NCBI RefSeq assembly: GCF_001618865.1
Contig: NZ_CP015136.1
Span: forward strand, 6,793,001-6,857,000
Length of the DNA stretch: 64,000 nucleotides
Direction of reading: 5' to 3'
From: Luteitalea pratensis
GTDB lineage: Bacteria > Acidobacteriota > Vicinamibacteria > Vicinamibacterales > Vicinamibacteraceae
Shown: positions 5,789 to 35,564 of the stretch, piece after piece
How positions within the stretch are numbered: the stretch's first letter is position 1
Layout of the letters: the number at the start of each line of letters is the position of its first letter
The notes under the pieces: model-generated
The model's input: the letters and a program-made list of their open reading frames with translations, nothing else
The model's database searches: none
What the model was told of the DNA's origin: nothing
Made by a program: the position numbers and the translations under genes

Positions 5789-8700
5789 CGCCGACGTAAT
5801 CCTTCCGGCAGACGGCGGCGTAGTCGCAGAACTGGCAGCGGAACGGGTTGTGCGGCTTCACCGGGAATACGCCGGCTTCGATGCGATCGACGGCCTCCAC
5901 GAAGGCGCGCGCGTGCTCGTCGGCGCCCTCCTGATCGGCGAGGGCCTGCACCCACGGCACGTCCTCGCGGAACGCGACGAATCCGCTCGGAGCGATGCCC
6001 ACGTGACGACCGGATGCACGCTCCTGCTGCACGACGGCATGCGCGTAGACGCCTGGCTGCAGGGCCTGGGTCGGCCGCCGGCCGGTCTTGTAGTCGATCA
6101 CGCGTACACGGCCGTCGCCGGTCCAGTCGACGCGGTCGATGCGCCCTCGCAGGTGCACCGTGCGTGTGCCATCGGCCGCCGGCAGGGTGACGTGCTGGTC
6201 GATCGGGTGCTCCAGGCCGCGACGCACCACGTCGCCGAAGAGTTCAGCCTCCACCCGCAGCATTTTCTCGAGCACGCCCGTCGCGACAGCCGACCCGAAC
6301 AGGCGGACGCGCTCGACGGCCCGATCGGCGGCCGGCAGCGCGCGCAGTGCCCGCTCGGCCACCGCCGCGAAGACGGCACGCGCCTCGGGAAGATCATCGG
6401 GACGTATCGCCACGTGTCCGCGCTCCCGCCACGCCTGGAAGCAGTCGTGCAGGACGTCGTGCAGCAGCAGGCCCGCGTCGCGCGCCGGCATACCGGGTTC
6501 GTCGTCGGCTTCTTCCTTCAGGCCGAGCACTCGCCCGGCAAAGTACTGGAAGGGGCACTGCAGGTACGTTTCGACGGCCGTGACGCTGTAGCGCTCGCCC
6601 ACCATTGGCGACGTCTGTCCCGCGTCTGTGCGCGGCGGGAGCGAGAGCCGCCACGCCGCCCAGTCCCGCGCCTCGGCGCCGAGGACGGTCGCCGACGGCA
6701 CGGCAGGCGTGGCCAGCAGGGCGTCCTCGCGCGTCACCGGGAGTTCTCGCTCGTCCGACGGGATGGCGATCAGGGCATCGGCGCCGAATACCTCCAACTC
6801 GTCGAGCAGCGACGAGGGCCGGACGACGGCGTCCTGATCGAGTTCGGGGACGGAGACGCCGACCGCGATCGCCGGCAGCGTCAGCAGATCGGCGAAGCGG
6901 GCCCGCAATGCGGCAGTGCGCGTCCGTTCTTCGGGCCATCCGAGCCGTTGCAGCATGAACGCGGGATAGAAGATCTCGCGAGCGGATGGCGCCGGCCATT
7001 CGCCCTCGAGCAGTCCGACGATGCGCGCGTGATCGAAGCGGCCGTACGGCGCGGCATCGGCATCGACGAGATGCACGCCTTCGTCGTCGCGCGGCAGGGC
7101 AAAGGTGCGCTCCTCGATCCACCGACGCACGAGGATGCAGGAATCCCTCGCCGGCACCGGTGTGGCGTCATGAGTGTCCAGCGCACGCTCGAGCTGATCG
7201 AGCAGCAGGTCCAGCGCGGCACGCGTGCGGCGCGTGCGGCTCGCATGCGGGTCGCCTTCGAGCGGCAGACGCTCGCAGGCTCGCCACGCCTCGCGAAGTG
7301 CGCGCACGTGTTCGGCGCCTGGAGCGGCACCCTGCAACGGTTCGAGCCGTTCGAGCCACGGACGCACGGCATCGGCGACGGCCCTGGCGGCGCGATCCTG
7401 CCGCCATTGGTCGGCGTGGCGGGTCGACGGGTCGGCGCCTTCGCGCGGCGGCGCGGCCGCCGGCAATGCCCGCAGGTGATCGAGTTGATCGAGCGAGCCC
7501 AGGTACCGCTGCCGAGCCAGCCAGGCATCGAAGGCGGCGATGTCGCCAGCCTGCACAGGCGTGCCGTCCTCGAGGCGCACCAGGACGTGGGGCGAGCGCA
7601 GCACGGTCACGAGCGCCGCCCGCGTGAAGCCGGAGAGGGCGGCGTCCATCAGCAGATCCAGGCCGGCGGCCCACGGCTCCGCAGCCAGCGGCAGCGTGCC
7701 GGCAGACTGGTACGGGATGCCCGCCGACTCGAACAGGAACTGCGCGGCGTAGAGATAGGGCAGGGGGCGGCGATAGACGAGCGCCGTGACGGAGGCGTCC
7801 GCTGGTCGCAGCGCCTTGACTCGCCGTGCGTAAGACAGCACTTCCTCGTCTCGATCGCGGCTGCCGATCCAGCGGCGATCGGCGCAATCGACCTCGAGCC
7901 GTGTCTCCGCCGGCCGCTGCCGTGGCACCCGCACCTCGGTCGCGTTCGGCCAGAGACGCCGCAGCCGCGCGAACAGGTCCTCGCCGACGCGACGCGTGGC
8001 GACGATGTCCAGGCGCTGGAGGCCGGGCGCCTGCGCCAGCAACTCGAAGTCCACGGGCCAGAGCCCCTGCGGCTCGGCATGGTGATCGGCGACGCTGACG
8101 ACCATGTGCGGCAGGCACCACGGACGGACCGATCCTCGCAGGGCCGCGTGAAGCGCGCGCTCATCCATGCTGTCGAGCGCCGCCACACGCGCGTCGAAGA
8201 CCCGGCACGCCTCGCGCAGGAACCGTGTCTGCAGCAGCAGGCGTTCGGCGCCACGATCGGAGGGCGCTTCGTCCTCGAGCCTGACCGCGGCCTCCTCGAG
8301 CCAGGTCGAGGGATCGTGCCCGAGACGCGCCACCTGGTCGTGCAAGCGCAGCATCTCGGCCACCAGTCCCGGGCGCAGCAGGAAGGGCGGGCGATGCACG
8401 CGCGACGCCTGCCGGGCACTGGCGCCCATCAACACCTCGCGCGTGAGCGGGGACAGGCGCGGCGCATCGATGCGCGCAGCGCGATGCCATGTGTCGTACA
8501 GGTCGTCGCGCGTCAGCAGGCGCGGCATCGCGATGGCGGCGTGGGGGCCGGGCGCGACGTGATGATCGAGCGCGTCCTGCAGCGCGAGCGGCGGCGTCCA
8601 CCGCTCGGCGAGAAGACGTTGCTCCAGCGTGCGGCGCCACTGCTCGGCCGCGGCACGATTGGGCACCACCATGATCGGTGGATCGATCTCCGTCCTCGTC

Positions 8701-18042: not shown

Positions 18043-18118
18043 GGGCCTGTAGCGCAGCTGGGAGCGCGCCTGAATGGCATTCAGGAGGTCACCGGTTCGA
18101 TCCCGGTCAGGTCCACCA
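18043..18118 (+). tRNA. tRNA-Ala (GGC anticodon)
   Basis: 76-nt cloverleaf. Acceptor GGGCCTG pairs with CAGGTCC (one G-U), D arm GCGCAGCTGGGAGCGC, anticodon stem CCTGA/TCAGG around loop ATGGCAT with anticodon GGC, T arm CACCGGTTCGATCCCGGTC is slightly irregular, and CCA is encoded (18116-18118). The 3' 38 bases are also covered, on the other strand, by the end of the recombinase ORF, so this tRNA is the target site of the adjacent element and its sequence is restored by the insertion. Confidence 0.95.
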
Positions 18119-19598
18119 ACCTTTTATTTCCCTCCTCAATCGGCTGCAAGTAGTTGAACGCCCTTGCGGTTACGGCGGTTCCAACGAAGTCGCGGCCGTC
18201 GAACGTCATCCCCTCCGGAAAGAACAGCTGTTGGAACCGCTGGCGCTGCGCCAGTGAGGCCTGCACCCACAGGTCTGCGGCGCGGGGCAGCACCCGCTCG
18301 GCAAACGCCAGGATGCCCTCAACGTCGAGCTCTTCGAGCTCCGTGGCGTGCCGGTCGATGCGGACCAGTGTGAGCTCCTCGCGCAGCTTCTCCGCGTGAC
18401 GGTCGTACACGTCGATATCGATCGAGCGCTCGAACAGGAACGCCTCGTCCAGACGGTCGAGCTTCTTCTGAATGGCTTCGGCCTGGCGCTCGGCGCGCGC
18501 GAGGTCCGCACGGGCAGACTCCTTGCGAGTCTTCCATACTTGGAGGACCGATTCCTTCAGCAGCCGCATGTAGCCGGCAGTCGGCTGCAGCCGGGTCAGC
18601 TCCTTCTCGAATAAGGTCTCGAGCCTGGCTTTGGTCACGTTGACGCCGCGACAGCCCGGCCGGCAGTGGTAGTAGGCGTAGTAGCTGCTTCGTCCCTTCG
18701 ACCAGCTGCCTGTGAGGCCGCGCCCGCAGGACTCGCACCGCACGAAGCCACGCAGCGGGAAATCCGGGTGCCCCTGTAACTGCGGCGCCAGGCTCGGCGT
18801 GTGGCCCGACAGCACGGCCTGAACTCGGTAGAAGGTGTCCTCGCTAACGAGCGGCTCGAAGTCCCCACGTCGGCCGCGCACCCCGTACTCGGCCACGTCG
18901 ACGATGCCGGCGTAGAGCTGGTTGCGCAGCAGCATCCCGATCGCCTGCGAGCTGAGAGGCTGACCGCGCCGGTTGCGCAGTCCCCAGGCCGTCACCTGCT
19001 GCAGCAACTGCTGCTTCGTGAATCGTCCGGTTGCGTACTCCTCGACGGCCCGCCGCACGAGCGGCGCGCGTTCCGGGTCGGGAATCAGGCTCTTGCCCAT
19101 CGCGCGCGGCGCATTCATGTATCCGAGCGGGGCCAGGAACACCCAGCGCCCGAGTTCGAGCGCCGCCTTCATGCCGGCCCGTGTGCGGTCCGAGCGCACG
19201 TCGTTGTCGAACTGCGCGAACGCCGCCAGCACGCCTTCCATCAACTTGCCGGTGGAGGTGTCGTCGATCGGCTCCGTCGCAGACCGCAGCGAGATGCCGA
19301 GCGACTGCAGATAGGAGCGCAACGCGAAGTGGTCGTACTTGTCGCGAGCGAAACGCGTCAGGTTGAACACGACCACGAAGTGCACGCGGCCCTTGTTCGT
19401 GCGGCAGAAGGCAAGCAGTCGCTGCAGTTCGGTGCGGTCCGCTGTCTTGGCGCTCTCACCCTCTTCCCTGAAGCGCTCGAGGACATCGAGCCCTTCGCGG
19501 CGGCAGTACTCCTCACAGGCCCGGAGCTGGGTCGGCAAGCTCAGGTTCTCCGTCTGCTCCTTCGTGCTGACGCGGATGTAGACGACGGCGCCGGCCAT
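18081..19598 (-). CDS. Large serine recombinase/integrase whose C-terminus is encoded by tRNA-Ala
   Basis: 505 residues. Catalytic domain: VYIRVSTKEQ with nucleophile S11 and R9, later NLTRFARDKYD (~79-89). A recombinase domain follows (~155-260). A zinc ribbon has C288/C291 (CESCGRGLTG) and C312/C316 (HCRPGC), and a coiled coil lies at ~355-410, the usual order of large serine integrases. The end, LVDLTGIEPVTS, is the antisense of the tRNA 3' half; the related copy at 33.1 kb instead ends LNSASWNPLISWLRR. Start ATG 19598 is placed just before the catalytic domain; no clear ribosome site is visible. Likely integrates and excises the adjacent element at tRNA-Ala. Confidence 0.92.
   Translation of the reverse strand: MAGAVVYIRVSTKEQTENLSLPTQLRACEEYCRREGLDVLERFREEGESAKTADRTELQRLLAFCRTNKGRVHFVVVFNLTRFARDKYDHFALRSYLQSLGISLRSATEPIDDTSTGKLMEGVLAAFAQFDNDVRSDRTRAGMKAALELGRWVFLAPLGYMNAPRAMGKSLIPDPERAPLVRRAVEEYATGRFTKQQLLQQVTAWGLRNRRGQPLSSQAIGMLLRNQLYAGIVDVAEYGVRGRRGDFEPLVSEDTFYRVQAVLSGHTPSLAPQLQGHPDFPLRGFVRCESCGRGLTGSWSKGRSSYYAYYHCRPGCRGVNVTKARLETLFEKELTRLQPTAGYMRLLKESVLQVWKTRKESARADLARAERQAEAIQKKLDRLDEAFLFERSIDIDVYDRHAEKLREELTLVRIDRHATELEELDVEGILAFAERVLPRAADLWVQASLAQRQRFQQLFFPEGMTFDGRDFVGTAVTARAFNYLQPIEEGNKRLVDLTGIEPVTS
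18107..18118. other. Attachment-site core at the tRNA-Ala 3' end (attL-like)
   Basis: TCAGGTCCACCA, the last 12 bases of tRNA-Ala, is repeated exactly at 33157-33168 inside the 3' end of the second recombinase gene and with one change at 25390-25401. Sequence identity with the second recombinase copy resumes within the recombinase body on the right of the core and is lost on the left (tRNA) side, as expected of an attL junction. Confidence 0.75.
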
Positions 19599-19677
19599 GG
19601 ATGGCAGCGTAGTCCCGTCGCCGGGCGGCTTCAAGGCGTTTGTGGTCGGGCGCATCGGTTCACTCGGCCTGGGCTCG

Positions 19678-19845
19678 CTAATGCAGAAACACCTCCAGCA
19701 GTGTGTGGGCGAGCACGTGCGCGTGACGGCGAATCTCCTCGATCTCGGCGTCGGTCAGGTCGATGGCCTCGTCGCCCAGCAGGCGACGGCAACACGTAAT
19801 CGGCAGCACGTCTCTCGCGTTCTGCGGTTCGACCGTGTCGTCCAT
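19678..19845 (-). CDS. Small recombinase-associated acidic protein
   Basis: 55 residues, mostly two helices: VLPITCCRRLLGDEAIDL and an acidic TDAEIEEIRRHAHVLAHTLL segment. It lies 79 bp upstream of the recombinase on the same strand. ATG 19845 was preferred (AGGACAGGA just upstream); ATG 19878 would add 11 residues. By position it could be an excision or regulatory accessory protein, but this is inference; no motif is diagnostic. Confidence 0.6.
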   Translation of the reverse strand: MDDTVEPQNARDVLPITCCRRLLGDEAIDLTDAEIEEIRRHAHVLAHTLLEVFLH

Positions 19846-19899
19846 GGCGGTGTCCTGTCCTGACAGGGCCAGCGCCATGCAGGGCGGGGGACGGGTCTT

Positions 19900-20040
19900 G
19901 GACCATCACGTAATTGCCGGTCTCCCGGCTCGTTCAAGGGTCCCGTCAAGGTCGAAGCCGCGCCGCCGGCGCGGGCCGAGCGCCAGCGAGGCGCCTTGAC
20001 GGGCACGAGAACGGGCCGACCATCGAGCGCGTGATGGTCC
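19900..20040. ncRNA. Candidate structured RNA element (nested stems, three-way junction)
   Basis: Perfect outer arms 19900-19910 and 20030-20040 (11 bp) enclose a second perfect 10-bp stem 19942-19951/19994-20003. Inside that stem sit a 7-bp hairpin, 19958-19964/19968-19974 with a 3-base loop, and a 4-bp hairpin, 19981-19984/19990-19993, so the core is a compact three-way junction. No convincing ORF covers it. It lies upstream of the 55-residue gene and recombinase on their strand, so it could be a leader, an sRNA or a DNA site for the element. Coding strand and transcription are not known. Confidence 0.45.
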
Positions 20041-20391
20041 TGCTCGTCGAACTGGTCTGGCGGGCGCCACTGGGGCGCGTGTGGTGGTACCGCCCGGGCC
20101 GTGGTGGCGCGGGCGCGGACGACCACTCAGGTCGCCGAGAAGTGAGACCGATGGGTCACTGTGGAGATCACCGCCGGGTCGGTGGCGCCGTGCGGCACGC
20201 TCCACGAACGCAGCGCCGGTGTGGCGTGCGCGACGACGTTGCTCCGCCCGGCTTCGAGCATGCAGCGCCGTATTGCTCTCTGCTTACCTGAACTCGCGTT
20301 CGCGGCGGAAGCTTACAGCCGGCCCGTGATGCGGCGCTCTGCTTCCCGTCTGGAGGTGCCACCAGATGGGCCGGACAGTTGCACCTGCAGC

Positions 20392-20463
20392 GGGCGTGAA
20401 CGACCCCCTCGGGGCCGCGGCGTAAACCGCGCCGCGGGTCTAAGGTGGGGGTCGTTCACGCCC
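20392..20463. repeat. Long palindrome with nested hairpin, MITE-like
   Basis: A perfect 17-bp inverted repeat (20392-20408 with 20447-20463) encloses a second perfect 8-bp stem CCGCGGCG/CGCCGCGG (20415-20422/20430-20437) with a TAAACCG loop. The arms read TGAACGACCCCC inward, similar to IS3-type termini (TGAACCGCCCC). An IS3 transposase relic follows 225 bp downstream. It could be a minimal non-autonomous element or fused IS ends. No T-run follows, so it is not a standard terminator. Confidence 0.75.
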
Positions 20464-20687
20464 CAATCTCGCGCAATTGCCTGGTTGGTCGGAGCGACGG
20501 TGGCGCCACAGAGCGCCGCCACCGTACAGTCGTCTAGTTCTCGCAAGTCGCCGCGTCGGCGCGGGTTGCGACGTTGCCTCAGTTCACCAGGCGGAAGAGA
20601 CAGAGACGGCGCCACTCGATCAGTCGTACCGCTTACGGGCGAAGACAGGCCCCACGACCATCTTCGCGCCCATCTTCGGTGCAAACG

Positions 20688-20993
20688 AGCGGCATCGACC
20701 CGCCGCATATCGATCCCGGCAAGCCTTGCCCGAACGGCCGCGACGAGAGCTTCAACGGCAAGTCTCGCGACGAGTGCCTTAACTTCGAGTGGTCACGGCG
20801 ACGCCACGAGGCGGTGGTGCTGATCGAGCAGTGGCGGCAGCACTACAATGCCGTCGGTGCGCACGCGAGCCTTGGCTACCGAACGCCGCACCAGTACAAG
20901 GCCACCCTGTGCCAACCAAGAAGAAGGTGTCACGGAGCGTCGGTCTCCAGTGAAGATCGGCCTGAGGAAGTCAGGCGGGTCATTACGACGTGA
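20688..20993 (+). pseudogene. IS3-family transposase (ORFB) C-terminal relic
   Basis: The readable part IDPGKPCPNGRDESFNGKSR, then DECLNFEW, then EQWRQHYNAVGAHASLGYRTPHQYK is the end of the IS3-family DDE integrase core: catalytic Glu within ESFN, and the YN..R/AHASLGYRTP signature. Everything upstream of the third catalytic residue is missing or scrambled, and Cys/Arg/Gly replace usual W/N/E positions. After YK the frame runs on into unrelated sequence. Not functional. Confidence 0.8.
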
Positions 20994-21050
20994 CATGCGT
21001 CGAGGCGCGGCGGTCAGCTGACGCTCGCAACCAGACAATTGAGTGCACCG

Positions 21051-21227
21051 ATGGCCGACTACGATTTCCGATCCCTGTCACCGCACGACTTTGAATTGCT
21101 ATCCCGCGACGTGCCGCAAACGGTGCTCGGGGTACGGCTTGAGAGTTTCACGACGGGGCGGGATTCCGGGATCGATTTCCGTTATCGCGGAGGCGGGATC
21201 AACCTGATCGTGCAGTGCCTTAATTAA
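21051..21227 (+). pseudogene. Truncated Mrr-like restriction endonuclease N-terminus
   Basis: 58 residues starting MADYDFRSLSPHDFELLSRD and continuing GVRLESFTTGRDSGIDFRY, then NLIVQC. This is the start of the Mrr/restriction-endonuclease-like fold: helix SPxDFE(L)L, then the GxDf acidic residue and IVQC(K). The catalytic Lys of QxK is lost because the frame stops at LN after VQC. In related proteins this domain often precedes an nSTAND-type NTPase, so it is probably a relic of an anti-phage gene (inference). Confidence 0.65.
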
Positions 21228-21228
21228 G

Positions 21229-21459
21229 GTGCAGACCGCAACTGAAGTAGCCGAATTATTGATTCGCACTGCCGCGTGGGTGGTACCCGCGACGACGGCA
21301 CTCGTCGCCGTGGCGAAGTTCGCACTCCAGTGGCAGTCCCAACGTCATCGCCTAGGACGGGCAAAGGTCGCCCTAGCAACGGCTCGCGGGCTGTCTGCCT
21401 GGCCATGGGCGGCTAGCTACGGCTTCCGTTTAACGGCTGCTGCTGACGCCACGTCTTGA
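21229..21459 (+). CDS. Short ORF with one membrane segment, doubtful
   Basis: 76 residues from GTG 21229. There is one hydrophobic stretch (AAWVVPATTALVAVAKFALQ, ~15-34), then a basic tail that looks like random read-through. It begins two bases after the stop of the truncated endonuclease. It may be the broken start of a membrane protein gene. No family recognised, no good ribosome site. Confidence 0.3.
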   Translation: MQTATEVAELLIRTAAWVVPATTALVAVAKFALQWQSQRHRLGRAKVALATARGLSAWPWAASYGFRLTAAADATS

Positions 21460-21621
21460 AGTGCGTCTCGAGCACACCCAGCGCCTGTGATGGGCCGACG
21501 GGCCGTACCCGTCATGGATCTCGCCAGTGAGCGAGCGCGCTCAACCTTCCGGAGAATAGGGTGACCGTCGTGCAGACGAGGTGCCGTGGGTCGTCCCAGA
21601 AACGAGTGTTTGTCCCGCGGT

Positions 21622-22251
21622 TTAATGAGGCTCGTCCTCGCGGCCAGGACCCACGGTGACGAACCCGAACATCCAGTTCGACAGGTAGTGGTTTCGATTC
21701 ATGCAGACAGCCAAATAGCGACCCGCCTTCGTAAAGCGAAACTGGAGCTGCGTCCCGGCAGTCGTTTCAGTCGCCCCCGCGAGAAAAACGCCAGAGAGGT
21801 TACCGACCTGAGTGGATGTCGCGAACAGTCTGTCGGTTGGATCGTCAACTCGCTGGAATGGCGGATTTGGTCCCGTCACGATGATGACGTTGCCCTTGCC
21901 ATCCAGAATCGTGTGATCGCCGTTCGCAAATAGCGGGTCCGTGCATTCCTGGGTCACCGGATCGTGACCGCAGAGCTGTGCGGCAATGCCGTCGCGAGTA
22001 GTGTTGGCGCTGACCGGATACAGAGCGATTCCATGGCCGGCTCCGTGGACAACGAAGGTGACGTTCTGGTCTTTATCGATTAACACCTCCTCGGGAACGA
22101 CAACATGGTTGCCAGCTCCCGCCAACGTGACTGGATCGCCGAAATTCACGACGACGTTGACCTCGTTGTGCCCCGTTCTGGCGTTTAGCGGAAATGCCAA
22201 GGTTAGAGCGAGGGTGGCGCTCACGATCGGAACGGATCGGCGATTTGCCAT
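21622..22251 (-). CDS. Secreted cupredoxin-like copper protein
   Basis: 209 residues. Signal peptide 1-25 (ALTLAFPLNARTG). The mature part is beta-rich: VVVPEEVLIDKDQNVTFVVH, then HGAGHGIALYPV, which supplies a likely first His ligand. The C-terminal loop CMNRNHYLSNWMFGFVTV has Cys, His and Met in cupredoxin ligand order. An inserted region with two Cys (LCGHDPVTQEC) may form a disulfide. Start ATG 22251 has AAAGGAG nearby with 8-base spacing, which rules out the longer reading to 22356. It may carry electrons or bind copper in the periplasm; the partner is unknown. Confidence 0.75.
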   Translation of the reverse strand: MANRRSVPIVSATLALTLAFPLNARTGHNEVNVVVNFGDPVTLAGAGNHVVVPEEVLIDKDQNVTFVVHGAGHGIALYPVSANTTRDGIAAQLCGHDPVTQECTDPLFANGDHTILDGKGNVIIVTGPNPPFQRVDDPTDRLFATSTQVGNLSGVFLAGATETTAGTQLQFRFTKAGRYLAVCMNRNHYLSNWMFGFVTVGPGREDEPH

Positions 22252-22399
22252 TTCGCTGCTCCTTTGAATTGAGAGCTCTTCAGTTGCCGGTATACCGCTG
22301 TTGCAGGGCTGCGGCGCAGCTTCCCCGATCGCGCTTGGGTTCGAGCCAGCCATCAATCTGGACCTTCAGCGGTTTGTCGTGCTGGGTCGAAGACGGAGC

Positions 22400-22756
22400 A
22401 TGAGGCATCCGCGACACGAGAGCCCGCAGCACGGCCCGATTCTACTCCCAACCCTTGACCTCGAATGCGGCTCGCCAATACTCGGCCCGATCGACCATCT
22501 CGCCACCGGAGCGGCACACGTGAGACTTCATCAAGTCGCCATCGCCGAGCGCTTCGCCAACGTTCCGCGCACCTATCGCCTCCGCGGTCTCGGCGCCACG
22601 GTGTACCGCCTCGGTGTGCCGAAGCCCGACGCACCTTGGTGGCATTTCGAGGCCTACGGAACCATAAAATGGGGCAGCGCGGCGAACGGGGCGTCGAAGC
22701 TCGTCGAGGACTTCATCGAGACGAACTACGACGCGATGGCGCCGGCGAGCCAGTAG
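22400..22756 (+). CDS. Hypothetical protein
   Basis: 118 residues. The C-terminal half looks like real protein: RLHQVAIAERFANVPRTYRL, GVPKPDAPWWHFEAYG and a helical NGASKLVEDFIETNY end. The first ~40 residues are less convincing and the start is uncertain; no ribosome site is visible. Divergent from the cupredoxin gene and convergent with the subtilase. No family recognised. It could also be the surviving 3' part of a longer gene. Confidence 0.45.
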   Translation: MRHPRHESPQHGPILLPTLDLECGSPILGPIDHLATGAAHVRLHQVAIAERFANVPRTYRLRGLGATVYRLGVPKPDAPWWHFEAYGTIKWGSAANGASKLVEDFIETNYDAMAPASQ

Positions 22757-22805
22757 GCCGCTTGCCGAGGCGGGAACCGTAGTTCCCGTCCCGTCGAAAG
22801 TCGCG

Positions 22806-25103
22806 CTACTTGCCCTCGAGGTTGAGCACCACGTCGTCTGCTGCGATCCGCAGCGTGTAATGCTCACCAACCGTCGGGACGCCGAAGGTTGGGATGCTGA
22901 AGCCCACCACCCGGGCCGTCCACTTGCCCGCGACCGGCTCGGTAACCACGCACAACTCCGGCGTGCGGTTCGTATTGCAGGAGTTGACCACCGGCCCGGA
23001 TGGCGGCGTGAGGATCACGTCGACGTCGCTGATCGGGTAGTTGCCGTTCATGTTCATCCAGGTCAGACGGGTCTCGAGTGCGGCCGTGCCCGCGGGCACG
23101 TCGAAGGTGTAGACGTGACTCTCGCCGTTGCCGATCTTCGCCTTCGCGCTGTGCTGCGGGAATGTCTCCTTGCTGGTCCAGATGTCCACGGTGTAGGAGA
23201 CGGTGCCCGCGTTGGTCCAGTCGCCAGCGGGCGAGATCCGCCAGATGCCCTCCTCCGGCCGGGTGAACGTGTACAGCCGTTCCTCTCCCGCGGGGAGGAA
23301 GGGCACGTTGCCCTGGCGCATATCGTCGTTGTGCACGACCGAGCTCTGGATCTTCAGGAACACGTCGTCGGTGAAGAACGGGTTCTGCTGCGCGAGCGGC
23401 AGGTCCGCGGCGATGCTGTGGATGCGCACGAACAGCTGTTCGGTCTTTTCGCTGACCACGAACGGGATGTCGGTCACCTGCGCCGGCCTGACACCAGCGA
23501 AGTGGAGCGACGTCGGACCCGCGTACACTTTGTGTCCCGCGCGCTCCATGTTCGCCTTGAGATTGCGCGTGAATGGCGCGGTGTCGTAGCTGTCGGCCGC
23601 GTTGCCCGCTTGCAGCAACGCCAGGGCCGCGGCCGCATTGATGAACCCGGCGCCCTGGTCGTTCGCGTCGGCGGTCGGCACCTTCGACGCGTCCGCCGAC
23701 TCGATGATCGCGCGCCGCACCTGCCGCGCCGTCGCGCCGGGCACCGCCTGCCGCAGCACGGCGGCAATCCCGGAGACCGTCGGCGTCGAATAGGACGTTC
23801 CGCTGCCGAAGTTCACGGTCGTCGCGCCGCCAGATGACTGGCTGTAGTTGAACGACCCGACGGCGACGACGTCCGGGTCGGTGCGGCCGTCATGCGTGGG
23901 GCCGCGCGAGCTGAACTCGGAGATCTGCACGTTGGTGTCCGGACGGTACGACTGCGCGCACGCGAACACCATCTCCAACGGGGTGCTGGCGAGGCCGCAG
24001 GGGGCGGAGAATTGCGCGCGAAAGATCTGCTCGTGCCGATGATCGTTGGCGCTGCCCACCGTGAGGGCCGCAAACGACGTGCTCGGCGATCCCGTGGTCA
24101 CCGACGAGTGGCCCTCGTTGCCTGCGGCGACGACGGGGACGATGTCGGCGTTGATCAGGGCTTCGACGGCCTCGTCATCGAGCTCCCGTGCCGCTGCGTT
24201 GGTCGGCCCCCCGAGGCTCAGGTTGGCCACGCGGATGTTGAGCCCGTCGGCCTGTCCCGTGTCGAACTTCTGGCGCAGGTCGATCGCCGCTTCCATGGCC
24301 GCGATCACGCGCGAGGTCGGTGCGCCGCCGCCGCCCGCCGGAAAGACCTTGATCGGAAAGATGCTCGCGCCGGGCGCGCTGCCGACCATCGGCACCAGCC
24401 GGGCAGTTGCCGCGCACGGTGGGCCGGCAAACGCCGCGCCGTAGAACTCCGCGACGACCACGAAGCGGGCCGCCGCGCTGAAGCAGAACGCGACGTTCGC
24501 CGCCGCCATCCCCGATACGAACGTGCCGTGCGGCTCGTTCAGGTCGCTGATGGCGGGAGGCTCCGTGGCGCCCTGGACCAGGTTCAGGCCCGGGGCGATG
24601 ATGCGCGACGGCGCGACATGGACCTTGATGGGACGGAAGCCGCTGTCGATGACCGCGATCACGACTCCAGCGCCGTTCTGCCCGGCAGCATGCAGCGGCG
24701 CCACGTTGGTCAGCGCCGCGTTGAAGGCATAGTTGGCCGGGTCGATCGAAACGCCACCTGCGTCGAGCGCGACGATGTCGTCGGCCTCGGCTTCGCCGTC
24801 GACGGAGCCGCCGCGCGGATCGGTCGTAGCGGGGAGTGGAATCAGCTCGTCGCGGCCGACGTTGTCCGGGCCAACCAGTCGTTCAATCAGCCCCATTGCC
24901 GAATCAGGCACCTCGGCCGCGATGCCTTTCACGTGCTTGAATCGATGGGTGACGGTGCCACCGGCCTGCTCGATCGCTCGAACGAGCGAGTCGTGCGGCT
25001 GGGCCGCTCGGATTAATACGCTACGACGACCTTGTGCCGACACGTCGGAAACGAGGAGAAGCAGCACGATCACCAGACAAATTCGCTTCATGGACGCCCC
25101 CAT
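22806..25103 (-). CDS. Secreted subtilisin-like S8 serine peptidase
   Basis: 765 residues. Signal peptide MKRICLVIVLLLLVSDVSAQ (from the second Met). An inhibitor-I9-like propeptide (~27-90) precedes the S8 domain with D153 (AVIDSGF), H192 (EPHGTFVSGM), oxyanion N329 (AAGNEG) and S437 (GTSYSTP). A beta-rich C-terminal region (~560-760, TWMNMNGNYPISDVDVILTP) resembles P/proprotein-convertase-like domains. Two starts, 25103 and 25091, are possible; the GGGGG before the second fits well. All catalytic residues are present. It is flanked by relics of the mobile element, so it is likely cargo, or a chromosomal gene trapped in the island. Confidence 0.9.
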   Translation of the reverse strand: MGASMKRICLVIVLLLLVSDVSAQGRRSVLIRAAQPHDSLVRAIEQAGGTVTHRFKHVKGIAAEVPDSAMGLIERLVGPDNVGRDELIPLPATTDPRGGSVDGEAEADDIVALDAGGVSIDPANYAFNAALTNVAPLHAAGQNGAGVVIAVIDSGFRPIKVHVAPSRIIAPGLNLVQGATEPPAISDLNEPHGTFVSGMAAANVAFCFSAAARFVVVAEFYGAAFAGPPCAATARLVPMVGSAPGASIFPIKVFPAGGGGAPTSRVIAAMEAAIDLRQKFDTGQADGLNIRVANLSLGGPTNAAARELDDEAVEALINADIVPVVAAGNEGHSSVTTGSPSTSFAALTVGSANDHRHEQIFRAQFSAPCGLASTPLEMVFACAQSYRPDTNVQISEFSSRGPTHDGRTDPDVVAVGSFNYSQSSGGATTVNFGSGTSYSTPTVSGIAAVLRQAVPGATARQVRRAIIESADASKVPTADANDQGAGFINAAAALALLQAGNAADSYDTAPFTRNLKANMERAGHKVYAGPTSLHFAGVRPAQVTDIPFVVSEKTEQLFVRIHSIAADLPLAQQNPFFTDDVFLKIQSSVVHNDDMRQGNVPFLPAGEERLYTFTRPEEGIWRISPAGDWTNAGTVSYTVDIWTSKETFPQHSAKAKIGNGESHVYTFDVPAGTAALETRLTWMNMNGNYPISDVDVILTPPSGPVVNSCNTNRTPELCVVTEPVAGKWTARVVGFSIPTFGVPTVGEHYTLRIAADDVVLNLEGK

Positions 25104-25321
25104 CTCTGTTCCAGGCCGGTAACCGCCCAGCCGGTACAGGGCGCAAACCTATGAGCGGTGGTCAGCGACGTCAAGCTAAAACTAAACAGTTGGACCGGCA
25201 CCCATGATGACGAGGGTTCCTGAAGCTCGAGCGGTCGCTTGAGGCGTGTCCTTCAGCGAGGAATCGCCGCTGGCCTTCCTGCGGTAAAGCATGCGGAGGG
25301 ACGGCATGCTTCGAGGTCGGG

Positions 25322-25402
25322 TCAGGCGGCATTCCGGAGTCCTTCGAGTCGCCGCAGCCAGCCGGCGACCTGGTTCCAACTGGCGCTGTTCTGGTCCACC
25401 AT
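25322..25402 (-). pseudogene. Recombinase C-terminal tail relic with att-like core (attR candidate)
   Basis: Reads MVDQNSASWNQVAGWLRR, then LEGLRNAA and stop, homologous to the intact tail of the second recombinase copy (VDLNSASWNPLISWLRR). The core at 25390-25401 is TCTGGTCCACCA, one base off the tRNA core. To the right of the core the recombinase body is absent and unrelated sequence begins. That is the structure expected of attR, the right end of an element inserted at tRNA-Ala. Confidence 0.65.
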
Positions 25403-25630
25403 TCTTCGCTCACGCGAGCTAACGCCGAAGCGTGAGCTTCGGCTCGGCGAGCCACGTGAAGGATGTCGCGCCGGAGCCGCGCAGCGGCGAAGGCGGACCC
25501 TCTGCGCCCGAATTTTCCACCCTTTTCATGTCGCCAGGTCGCAGAAGCTGCGATCGTCGCAAGGCCATGACGCCGATTCCGTGGTTTTGAAGCCGTCAGC
25601 GTTCGGCATTGCCGTTGCCTCCGGCCTCGT

Positions 25631-25884
25631 ATGCCGGGAGGCAAGCGCTTCGTCTACGTTCTCAAGAGTGGCGGTCCGAACCCCAACTTCTACATCGGCC
25701 TGACCTCCGATGTCTCCGCGCGCCTCGCCGACCACAACGCCGGCCGCTGCCCCACACGGCGCGCTACCGCCCCTGGCAACTTCACGTCACCATCGAACTG
25801 CCCGACGAGCAACGAGCTGTGGCGTTCGAGCGCTATCTGAAATCAGGCTCTGGTCGCGCCTTCGCGAAGCGTCATTTAGGGTGA
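25631..25884 (+). pseudogene. GIY-YIG endonuclease-like gene, single-base frameshift
   Basis: Frame 1 gives MPGGKRFVYVLKSGGPNPNF, then YIGLTSDVSARLADHNAGRCP; frame 2 continues HTARYRPWQLHVTIEL and ends AFERYLKSGSGRAFAKRHLG. Together they form an ~84-residue UPF0213/GIY-YIG domain with the YVL..YIG motif, R and the C-terminal E/N positions. The break is at the CCCC run near 25752; one extra C would restore it. Either a pseudogene or a sequencing slip; other frameshifts nearby favour decay. Confidence 0.8.
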
Positions 25885-25896
25885 TGAGTCGCTACG

Positions 25897-25974
25897 CGTC
25901 TTCGAGCAGCTGCCGGTGAGGCCTCGACCACAGGACTCACTGCGCACGAACGCGCGCCATGGGAAGTCCGTTCC
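25897..25974 (-). pseudogene. Recombinase zinc-ribbon fragment
   Basis: 26 codons reading DFPWRAFVRSESCGRGLTGS with neighbours. They align with DFPLRGFVRCESCGRGLTGS of the intact recombinase; one zinc Cys is now Ser. The distance from the core at 25390 (about 0.5 kb) is close to that in the intact gene (about 0.6 kb), so 25322-25974 is probably one decayed recombinase copy whose middle was replaced by the GIY-YIG sequence. Confidence 0.7.
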
Positions 25975-33088: not shown

Positions 33089-34293
33089 TTACGCGACACT
33101 TCTCAGCGCCTCGATCCGCCGTAGCCAGCTGATCAATGGGTTCCAACTGGCGCTGTTCAGGTCCACCATCCTGTCGTTTCCCCTCTCAATCGGCTGCAAG
33201 TAGTTGAACACCGGTGCGGTTACGGCGGTTCCAACGAAGCCGTTGCCGTCCAACGCCATCCCCTCGGGAAAGAACAGCTGTTGGAACCGCTGGCGCTGCG
33301 CCAGTGAGGCCTGTACCCACAGGTCTGCGGCGCGGGGCAGCACCCGCTCGGCAAACCCCAGGATGCCCTCCACGTCGAGCTCATCGAGCTCCGTGGCGTG
33401 CCTGTCGATTCGAAGCAGCGTGAGTTCCTCGCGCAGCTTCTCCGCGTGACGGTCGTAGACGTCGATATCGATCGAGCGCTCGAACAGGAACGCTTCGTCG
33501 AGCCGGTCGAGCTTCTTCTGGATGGCTTGGGCCTGGCGCTCAGCGCGTGCGAGGTCGGCGCCTGGCGGACTCCTTGCGCGCTTTCCAGATCTGGAGGACC
33601 GACTCCTTCAGCAGCCGTAGATAGCCAGCACTCGGCTGCAGCCGAGCCAGCTCCTTCTCGAACAACGTCTCGAGCTTGGCCTTGGTCACGTTGACGCCGC
33701 GACAGCCTGGACGGCAATGGTAGTAGGCGTAGTAGCTGCTCCGGCCCTTCGACCAGCGGCCGGTGAGGCCGCGGCCGCAAGCCGCGCAACGCACGAAGCC
33801 GCGCAGCGCAAAATCCGGGTGCCCCTGCAGCTGGGGCGCCGTGCTCGGAATGCGGCCCGAGAGTACTGCCCGGACTCGGTAGAAGGTGTCTCCACGCTGT
33901 CGCCTGCTGAAGCAACTGCTGCTTCGTGAACCGGCCGGTCGCGTACGCCTCGAAGGCCCGGCGCACCAAGGGCGCGCGTTCCGGATCGGGCATCAGGCTC
34001 TTGCCCGACGGGCGCGGCGCGTTCATGTATCCGAGCGGGGCAAGGAACACCCAGCGTTCGAGTTCGAGCGCGGCCTTCATGCCGGCCCGCGTGCGGTCCG
34101 AGCGAAGTCGTTGTCGAACTGCGCGAACGCGGCCAGCACGCCTTCCATCAGCTTGCCGGTAGAGGTGTCGTCGACGGGCTCCGTCGCGGACCGCAGCGAG
34201 ATGCCCAGCGACTGCAGGTGCGAGCGCAGCGCGAAATGGTCGTACTTGTCGCGTGCGAAGCGCGTCAGGTTGAACACGACCACGAAGTGCAGC
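33089..34293 (-). pseudogene. Second large serine recombinase copy, truncated and frameshifted
   Basis: Highly similar to the 18.1-kb recombinase but broken. The first ~92 residues, with the catalytic Ser, are missing (homology begins at HFVVVFNLTRFARDKYDHFA). There is a frameshift after AAFAQFDND, a deletion of ~50 residues of the recombinase domain near 33893, and another shift near 33560. Its 3' end is the complete one: NDRMVDLNSASWNPLISWLR and ~12 more residues. It therefore shows what the intact recombinase tail looked like before insertion at tRNA-Ala. Confidence 0.88.
33157..33168. other. Attachment core inside the recombinase 3' end (attP-like)
   Basis: TCAGGTCCACCA, identical to the tRNA-Ala 3' end core at 18107-18118. 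It encodes the VDL step just before the tail (NSASWN). Recombinase sequence is continuous on both sides, as expected of an unrecombined attP or of the junction between two tandem elements. Confidence 0.7.
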
Positions 34294-35564
34294 CGCATCA
34301 TCGACCAGAGCTCCAACGCGTACCTGCTGGTGTACGAGTCGCCGGTGTCCCGGGAGCGTGGGCGACATCGCATCGAGTTACGGGTGAGGCGACCAGGCGC
34401 ACGAGTCTCGGCTCGCAGAGGCTACATCGTCGAGCCGCCTCGCCCGGCGAAAGCACCTCCGCGACCACGGCCGACGACGCTTGCTGCGTCGCACGTTGCT
34501 CGGCAGTGCCCCTCAGGGAAAGCTGCGGCTCATCGTGGATGCCGTCCCCCGCTCCGCGAACGGCAAGACCGGATCGGTGTCGGTCACCGTACTCGCCGAC
34601 GGTGGGGATGAGCGGATCGGCGCGCCGGTCGATGTCGTCCTCGCCACCTTCGACGATGAGGGGCGGGCAACCAACCAGCATCAGGTACGCCTTGACTCGC
34701 CGCCGGCCGGGCAGCCGCTGGAGTTCACCACGGAGTGCCTCTGCCGCCTGGGCGACACCAGTTACGGGTGGCCGCCGTCACGGCTGACGCGACGAAGACT
34801 GGCCTCGTGATTACGCCCGTGGAGGTCATCGAACCTGGGCGCCAGTTGATGATGGCGCCACCGGTCGTGCCACAGCGCGTGGGTGAGCAGGTCGCGCCGA
34901 CGGCTGCGCAACGTTTCGCGCCAGGTAGGCCACCCGGCGTACAGGCCGAGATCGCAGGTCGGCCGGTTCAGGAGGGCACGGTCGTCGTCCGGATCTCGCT
35001 AGCCGATCGCGCCGGTACGGTCGTCAGCAAGGCTGATGGCGCCGTCGACGCGGGCGGGCGCCTGACCGGCAGCGCGCCACCGGGCTGATCGACACGACTG
35101 GTCTGGGCAACGGAGCCTACCTGCTCACCATTGAGGCTGTCCCACCCAAGGCCGCCGACGCCGTCCGACACGTCATCCCTATCCGCTTGGACTCGGCCAC
35201 GAGTACGGCCGTAGGACCGCGTCACCTGGTCGTGGCGCACGGCCCGTCGTCACACCATGCTGCTGCGGGGACGTTCGTGATCCGCACCGAGGAGGAGTGG
35301 CGCGCATTCTGGAGCCACCTGCCGACGCGGCAGACCGTGCCGCCCATCGACTTCAGCCGCGCGACATTGTTCGCCGTTGTCGGCGGCGGCGCCGACGCAC
35401 CAGCAAGCAAGCCTCTCGTGGTGTCGGTGAACGACAATGCCGGCCAGACCGTGGTGGTCTGGCGGAGGGAGCCCGACGTCTCCCCGACCGACGAGAAGCC
35501 CTTCACCGTGGTCGCGATACCACGAACAATCGAGGGGCCGGTCAGATTCGAACGACAGCAGTAG
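34294..35564 (+). pseudogene. VWFA-type exported protein, N-terminally truncated with at least three frameshifts
   Basis: Pieces in successive frames: IIDQSSNAYLLVYESPVSRE and RRPGARVSARRGY (34295-34480); GKLRLIVDAVPRSANGKTGS to FTTE (34510-34730); PLPPGRHQLRVAAVTADATK to DAGGRLTG (34738-35070); TGLGNGAYLLTIEAVP on to RTEEEWRAFWSHLPTRQ and the end (35095-35564). The order matches the C-terminal half of Acidobacteriota VWFA proteins, after the A domain (..YLLGY.., RARRGY). The 5' half is replaced by the recombinase relic. The last ~115 residues may be an unrelated downstream domain. Confidence 0.7.

Follow-up and report, generated by a model that had tools for sequence, protein, structure and literature searches.

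The large serine integrase gene that abuts a tRNA-Ala gene in Luteitalea pratensis runs into the 3′-end of that tRNA on the opposite strand, and a decayed relative of the same gene, elsewhere in the same stretch, ends differently. This raises the question of whether the enzyme's own C-terminus is rewritten when its element is inserted. The first-pass annotation of this DNA had proposed that it is, placing attP in the 3′-end of the recombinase gene. We addressed the question in the window (the whole stretch of 64,000 nucleotides, from a genome that is one contig of 7.48 Mb) and in related elements from other genomes and from viral contigs.

Integrase, tRNA and core in the window

The integrase of the locus, integrase A, is intact (Table 1). 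Its end at 18081 had been correctly placed by the first-pass annotation, but the start given there, the ATG at 19598, is an inner start within an ORF of 18081-19655 on the minus strand. The protein carries the Resolvase catalytic domain, the Recombinase domain and the zinc ribbon (PF00239, PF07508 and PF13408, all above cut-offs), and sequence and fold matches link it to phage large serine integrases (A118/LI, Bxb1, SPbeta, phiC31). Against the integrase chains of SPbeta, Bxb1, phiC31 and A118, Foldseek gives a probability of 1.00 and query TM-scores of 0.20-0.45; in the model of a relative, L200, two long helices (338-387 and 392-435) make up the long coiled-coil after the zinc domain. The intact tail of integrase A reads LVDLTGIEPVTS up to the stop, and the last eight residues, TGIEPVTS, are the antisense of the tRNA-Ala 3′-end; this earlier reading of the end is borne out both by ARAGORN and by the sequence.

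Table 1. Features of the integrase locus and of the neighbouring element ends, in window positions
Feature	Position	Strand	Basis or remark
tRNA-Ala(GGC), target gene	18043..18118	+	ARAGORN
Large serine integrase A	18081..19655	-	Intact, attL (integrated) form, 524 aa
Predicted attL	18093..18139		Sequence; predicted with the geometry of PMC3783163
B′ half of predicted attL (tRNA)	18093-18112		GAACC at 18094-18098 on minus strand
Core at attL, TGGTGGACCTGA on integrase strand	18107..18118	-	Core search
P half of predicted attL, inside integrase gene	18115-18139		Predicted
P′ arm with core TCTGGTCCACCA (25390-25401), one change from TCAGGTCCACCA	25325..25402	-	Tail MVDQNSASWNQVAGWLRRLEGLRNAA up to the stop at 25322-25324
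Hairpin beginning TTCTTCGCTC	25402..25470		Borders the 25.4-kb arm
Presumed GIY-YIG-like ORF, between hairpin and integrase fragment	25609..25884	+	ORF list
Fragment of further integrase, residues 298-323, 81% identical	25891..25968	-	Sequence comparison
P′ arm with core (33157-33168)	33092..33169	-	Tail MVDLNSASWNPLISWLRRIEALRSVA, stop at 33089-33091
Decayed sibling integrase, pieces in several frames	33155..34382	-	Sequence comparison

The core TCAGGTCCACCA occurs exactly at 18107-18118 and at 33157-33168, and these are the very points at which the intact and the decayed recombinase diverge, as had been claimed for a 12-bp core common to both. With at most one mismatch, the core has three matches in the window against 0.31 expected by chance, a count that 1 of 100 shuffles reached. 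From the 25.4-kb core the minus strand opens, in the integrase frame, into the peptide VDQNSASWNQVAGWLRRLEGLRNAA and a stop; from the 33.1-kb core it opens, in the same frame, into the similar peptide VDLNSASWNPLISWLRRIEALRSVA and a stop. The latter arm continues the reading frame in which the decayed integrase on its right ends, which makes an attP-like junction, and the sibling does carry the other tail, MVDLNSASWNPLISWLRRIEALRSVA, from the core onward, as first described.

The 25.4-kb arm is probably the right end (attR) of element A, which would most simply span about 18107-25401, with older remains beyond. This extra arm and the recombinase fragment near it are both missing from the first-pass annotation, and with them we read the region as a stack of element ends and not as a single pair. 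The hairpin that borders the arm is probably the chromosomal B half, since in a relative, L180, tRNA-Ala is followed by a similar sequence where the site seems to be empty; no integrase is seen in the 588 bases left on that contig, and the genome that contains it (G539) has no match to the C-terminal query described below. Hairpin-like sequences of this kind, starting with CCTTCGCTC or a near variant, come after the tRNA 3′-end at that seemingly empty site and also flank many attR arms, whether the core is of the Ala, Lys or Glu type (the window, L180, L074, L076, L079, L093, L167 and L169); they resemble a repeat family located at tRNA ends or favoured as the B half-site.

Three further features of the genome were seen. 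The ORF beyond the hairpin, which we take from its motif to be GIY-YIG-like, was found only at the 25.4-kb arm in a motif search that covered up to 900 bases beyond each arm, many flanks being shorter. Inside element A, ORF 22806-25103 (765 aa) looks by eye like a subtilisin-type protease and is possible cargo. A second decayed integrase lies near 4.68 Mb in the same genome (L011, 4798-6014, minus strand), with an arm, LASPVWASWNQLEQWLRAVDGLRLAA, at 7636-7713 on the minus strand, about 1.6 kb past the N-terminal side of that decayed integrase.

The symmetry of GGT-GG-ACC suggests that the core is centred on the GG at 18113-18114. Counted from this centre, GAACC lies at 15-19 in the B′ (tRNA) half and at 20-24 in the P′ half; in the other two halves, P and B, no matching motif was seen by eye. 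Large serine integrases act on an attP of about 50 bp and an attB of about 40 bp. In serine integrase sites the zinc-domain motif is at 16-24 in attP and shifted by 5 bp, to 11-19, in attB (PMC3783163). The GAACC offset may correspond to this 5-bp shift, by which attB and attP are distinguished. As the T-loop shared by tRNAs reads GAACC on its antisense strand, the use of several tRNAs by related integrases would be explained: the enzyme may recognise the universal T-loop, as GAACC on its own strand, and the family could then use several tRNA genes.

Related elements, their targets and their arms

Related loci were drawn from a scan of genome contigs (31 loci), a survey of the phylum (44 of 396 genomes matched at E 1e-30) and a survey of the order with a 94-residue C-terminal query (54 of 162 genomes matched at E 0.001). 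The first-pass annotation had drawn attention to where the C-termini of this family lie relative to tRNA 3′-ends, and among 66 distinct C-termini that we classified, 37 do overlap with an intact tRNA of the opposite strand (Ala 16, Glu 13, Lys 7, Gln 1). The frame G-[IFV]-E-P is found in 36 of these 37, the exception being L064, where the tRNA is read in another frame. The other classes are 15 tRNA 3′ remnants, which include a tail-like end (L177), an early stop (L029) and two ends cut by contig ends (L110 and L123); nine P′ arms, two of them (L121 and L173) without a clean tail; and five others, among which L022 looks tRNA-derived and L177 is counted a second time. Met tRNAs lie beside two more distant loci, L037 and L039.

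Homologues with GIEP-like ends beside no intact tRNA, which the first-pass annotation had thought would speak against its proposal, do exist: they make up 13 of the 15 remnant rows, and one of them (L126, at the same site as L075 and L015) ends exactly in TGIEPVTS. The remnant rows carry the T-loop motif by pattern, and L075 shows a 3′ piece of tRNA-Ala. Since the tail in such cases is still read from tRNA sequence, we do not take these ends as refuting the proposal.

A same-strand arm lies 4.9-16 kb upstream of the integrase in 16 of the 27 loci that have at least 3 kb of upstream DNA. The sites of these 16 are at Ala, Lys and Glu tRNAs, and the loci include Nitrospira (L099) and Omnitrophica (L100) MAGs. 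No arm was found in the remaining 11, with flanks of 3-18 kb; among them are two tRNA-Ala loci (L077 and L092, flanks of 18 and 12 kb), a tRNA-Glu locus in a ‘bacterium’ MAG (L102) and a tRNA-Met locus in Flavobacterium (L104). A Chloroflexi locus, L103, in which WN is present with no clear tail, was left out.

Where elements are stacked, the end of the older, inner integrase is joined to the conserved tail. Homologous recombination between related elements might produce such stacks, with the core repeats a coincidence, and stacked elements do have integrase sequence in common. However, the arm junctions fall at the core, and do so beside several kinds of tRNA. The arms were picked with a pattern that contains the core, but arms found by the core repeat alone fit as well, and we regard a recombinational origin as highly improbable.

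At two stacked tRNA-Glu elements (L095, oriented 11870, and L096, oriented 19408) the tail is a different one, containing GWH, and the inner integrase (L019) is intact; the sequence would fit either a second type of tail or a diverged one. In collections of plasmid and phage records, 620 and 652 records matched, each at <60% identity. Among the matches listed, identity was 22.6-30.8%, so low that these proteins are too distant for the question of the tail.

The alternative tail

To describe the alternative tail, we used P′ arms matched by a DNA pattern. The fetched DNA gave 42 matches, from which six without core (L103 among them) were dropped to leave 36; removal of a false match, L080+2539, left 35 arms, and L200 is not among these. 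The pattern fixes the spacing to GGAAC, a spacing also seen in the arms that were found through core repeats without the pattern. Twelve of the 35 come from loci fetched with a query that contains the tail, and the arms are related, so that all counts are of non-independent events.

The tail has a consensus of roughly SWN-x(4)-WL-x(5)-LR-x-[AV]A, followed by the stop. Codon 15 is Leu in 34 of 35 arms and uses all six Leu codons; codon 22 is Arg in 28, likewise with all six codons; codon 21 is Leu in 28, with five codons; and codon 14 is Trp in 33. Several codons of the att half do not vary, in keeping with a DNA site: codon 9 is Asn in every arm and always AAC, and codon 7, where it is Ser (27 arms), is always AGT. 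The stop is at codon index 26 in 21 of the 35; in three arms the first 50 codons contain no stop, and a further arm has it at index 44.

Past the DNA site, pN/pS is 0.64 in the integrase frame versus 1.07 and 1.27 in the other frames, and within the att half it is 0.87 (all computed on the 36 matches, the false one included). Mean pairwise nucleotide identity falls from 0.72 in the att half to 0.49 in the tail and to 0.27 beyond the usual stop (in the 34 arms that have 150 bases). The 23 arms from loci retrieved without use of the tail query agree, with Leu15 in 22, an identity of 0.49 in the tail and 0.26 after the stop. When columns are shuffled, the tail scores z 6.2 in frame versus 2.8 and 1.6 in the other frames, the arms being related; in the att half the values are 3.9, 3.1 and 5.2, and the integrase frame is not preferred.

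These measures bear on a simpler view, in which the arm is conserved solely as DNA to which the integrase binds (the P′ half of attP) and its open frame is incidental. Codons 1-9 behave much as that view predicts, being largely single-codon and without preference for the integrase frame. But conservation extends for some 45 bp beyond the half-site, itself roughly 25 bp long, and ceases at the position of the usual stop codon, and variation in the tail is mainly at the third position (identity by codon position 0.51, 0.61 and 0.36). Taken as a DNA site alone, the arm is largely refuted by codon usage, pN/pS and the drop in identity at the stop, and we give this view very little weight. By these sequence measures the alternative tail is a conserved peptide, selected past the DNA site. 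That it is conserved as protein there strongly supports the earlier claim that insertion swaps the protein tail, and the companion claim, that attP lies in the recombinase 3′-end, is as strongly supported by the same frame running across the core in the window and in related elements.

The tail was also found away from tRNAs, in two IMG/VR contigs. L200 (IMGVR_UViG_3300037692_000185), which was found via the DNA pattern and not via the tail, encodes an intact 517-aa integrase, 50% identical, that ends in LVDLLTPSWNPTLAWLRHLYDTLPRAA; ARAGORN detects no tRNA in its 8.9 kb. In L112, with no tRNA in 13.7 kb by the same program, the integrase is 82% identical and ends in VDLRMPTWNHVNTFLRHFTPLAA but is frameshifted. 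A tail with WN does occur away from a tRNA, in one intact and one frameshifted gene. The two contigs fit a free form, which the first-pass annotation had predicted as the bearer of this tail, but either could instead be a stacked chromosomal copy: they have no end repeats, and no circle was seen. None of the six L200 ORFs besides the integrase matched a PHROG, and its phage nature therefore rests on IMG/VR; among three L112 ORFs, two had matches, one to tail fibre families and the other to a family without known function. An alignment scan of viral contigs returned L112 alone, whereas the DNA pattern for attP gave 20, 15 and 5 stretches, two of which (L200, and L206, which is L112) carry integrase plus tail among the 40. 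A further stretch flagged by the script, L202, was rejected, as translation shows no integrase upstream.

Possible roles of the tail and known systems

Because the arms encode a conserved peptide, the C-termini overlap tRNAs and the L200 tail occurs without a tRNA, it is very probable that the integrase gene contains attP and that insertion swaps the tail. We strongly infer that the integrase gene of the free element runs through the core and ends with the tail, and that insertion at a tRNA leaves the tail at the far end while the frame is closed by antisense tRNA (GIEP...). At occupied sites, the last codons of the integrase are core plus the antisense of the tRNA 3′-end. We consider it likely that the model holds as a whole: a serine integrase family with attP in the 3′-end of its own gene, and a tail whose most probable role would be that of a state-specific regulator. 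A difference in activity between the two forms, and with it the built-in switch between insertion and excision suggested by the first-pass annotation, is still a hypothesis, so that the earlier interpretation is supported in part.

The regulator, which would be carried only while the element is free, may be a flexibly linked amphipathic helix. AlphaFold places a tail helix at 499-516 of L200 (mean pLDDT about 61) after a stretch with values of 33-49, and docks this tail nowhere; in integrase A the last 24 residues are of low confidence and without helix, the two models being of different proteins with alignments of 39 (L200) and 13 (integrase A) rows. Such a tail may act on the integrase complex and favour attP x attB, its loss leaving an enzyme set for the integrated state. 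As a self-encoded directionality element, the helix of the free form would bias the integrase to integration; insertion, by exchanging the helix for antisense tRNA, would convert the enzyme to its integrated-state form, and stacking of a second element would return the helix to the older integrase. This specific role is a tentative proposal. Large serine integrases integrate by themselves and need a directionality factor for excision. Such a factor fused to the C-terminus allows the phiC31 and Bxb1 integrases to perform attL x attR and lowers attP x attB (PMC5737554). Those fusions are C-terminal extensions too, but they are man-made and comprise a whole directionality factor (PMC5737554).

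Alternatively, the tail may act as a turnover signal, as most tails end in Ala. The free integrase would then be short-lived and insertion would remove a degradation tag, as in mycobacteriophage BPs. Ala is the last residue in 26 of the 31 arms with a stop at index 24-31 (a raw count) and also ends several tails with a shifted stop; AA or VA ends 21 of the 31, the genome's own tmRNA tag is AEPQLALAA, and a low-confidence linker precedes the L200 tail. The BPs system offers a precedent, in that attP lies inside an ORF, insertion changes the C-terminus and the free form has the extra tail (PMC4557955); there, however, the gene is the repressor and the tail an ssrA-like degradation tag, whereas here the gene is an integrase and the ends are Ala-rich. 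The conserved Trp14, Leu15, Leu21 and Arg22 go beyond what a tag needs, and 5 of the 31 tails end in another residue. A tag is possible but doubtful as the full account; action on the complex appears slightly likelier than turnover, and both could hold.

It is also conceivable, though rather unlikely, that the tail is a plain structural end whose loss is the tolerated cost of an attP at the gene end, the tRNA-tailed form being simply weaker, a soft version of a ‘suicidal’ integrase that stacking or superinfection revives. Stacked copies do regain the tail, the helix of the L200 tail is of low confidence only, and archaeal suicidal integrases provide a precedent (PMC8371274). Those enzymes likewise have the att site inside the integrase gene, but they are tyrosine enzymes whose gene is split in two, a type described as exclusive to archaea (PMC8371274); the enzymes here have serine recombinase domains and exchange only a short C-terminal tail. 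Against a merely weakened enzyme, a frame of at least 480 codons is open in 25 of the 28 integrases at intact tRNAs with enough DNA, versus none of the four stacked tail-bearing copies with enough DNA (L200, L174, which has too little DNA, L121 and L173 were left out of the latter count), although stacked copies may be older and the variant inner copy L019 is intact. With 25 of 28 open, the tRNA-tailed form, which lacks the conserved tail, seems to be kept while the element is integrated, or else the elements are young; the sample fits either.

In the phages A118/LI, Bxb1, SPbeta and phiC31, attP is not known to lie within the coding frame. The family described here resembles phage large serine integrases in its domains and its sequence and fold matches, and its att geometry may follow the 5-bp shift (PMC3783163). 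The closest published parallel in gene arrangement is dsiB of Dehalococcoides, whose 3′-end always overlaps attL at ssrA, with the stop outside the island and the islands stacked; its authors suggested that full function of dsiB may require the circular form or a position behind another island (PMC3146451). As in DsiB, the 3′-end of the integrase A gene overlaps attL and its stop lies outside the element (PMC3146451). Unlike DsiB, a CcrB-like enzyme with ssrA as target, the integrases here use tRNA-Ala, Glu, Lys, Gln and Met, and where the sections of that report available to us give divergent C-termini and describe no conserved alternative tail or codon-level test, the tail here is conserved (PMC3146451). 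In the open-access literature we found no report of a conserved alternative tail of a serine integrase. A gene/att overlap of a similar kind is therefore already published, for dsiB; what appears to be new is that a different serine integrase family, one found at tRNA genes, has a conserved tail that is under selection.

Should the two forms differ in action, the serine integrase would alter its own protein product through the reaction that it catalyses, and a record of whether the element is free or integrated would require no second gene. The 2011 suggestion made for dsiB becomes a testable pattern in another family, one that would give an accessible test of C-terminal control of direction in serine integrases, enzymes in wide use as tools. 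The tRNA-like ends of this family, such as TGIEPVTS, would likewise be explained as a reading of the target gene and not the enzyme's own end. Finally, if its outer recognition motif is the universal T-loop, a single integrase family may be able to move between tRNA genes.
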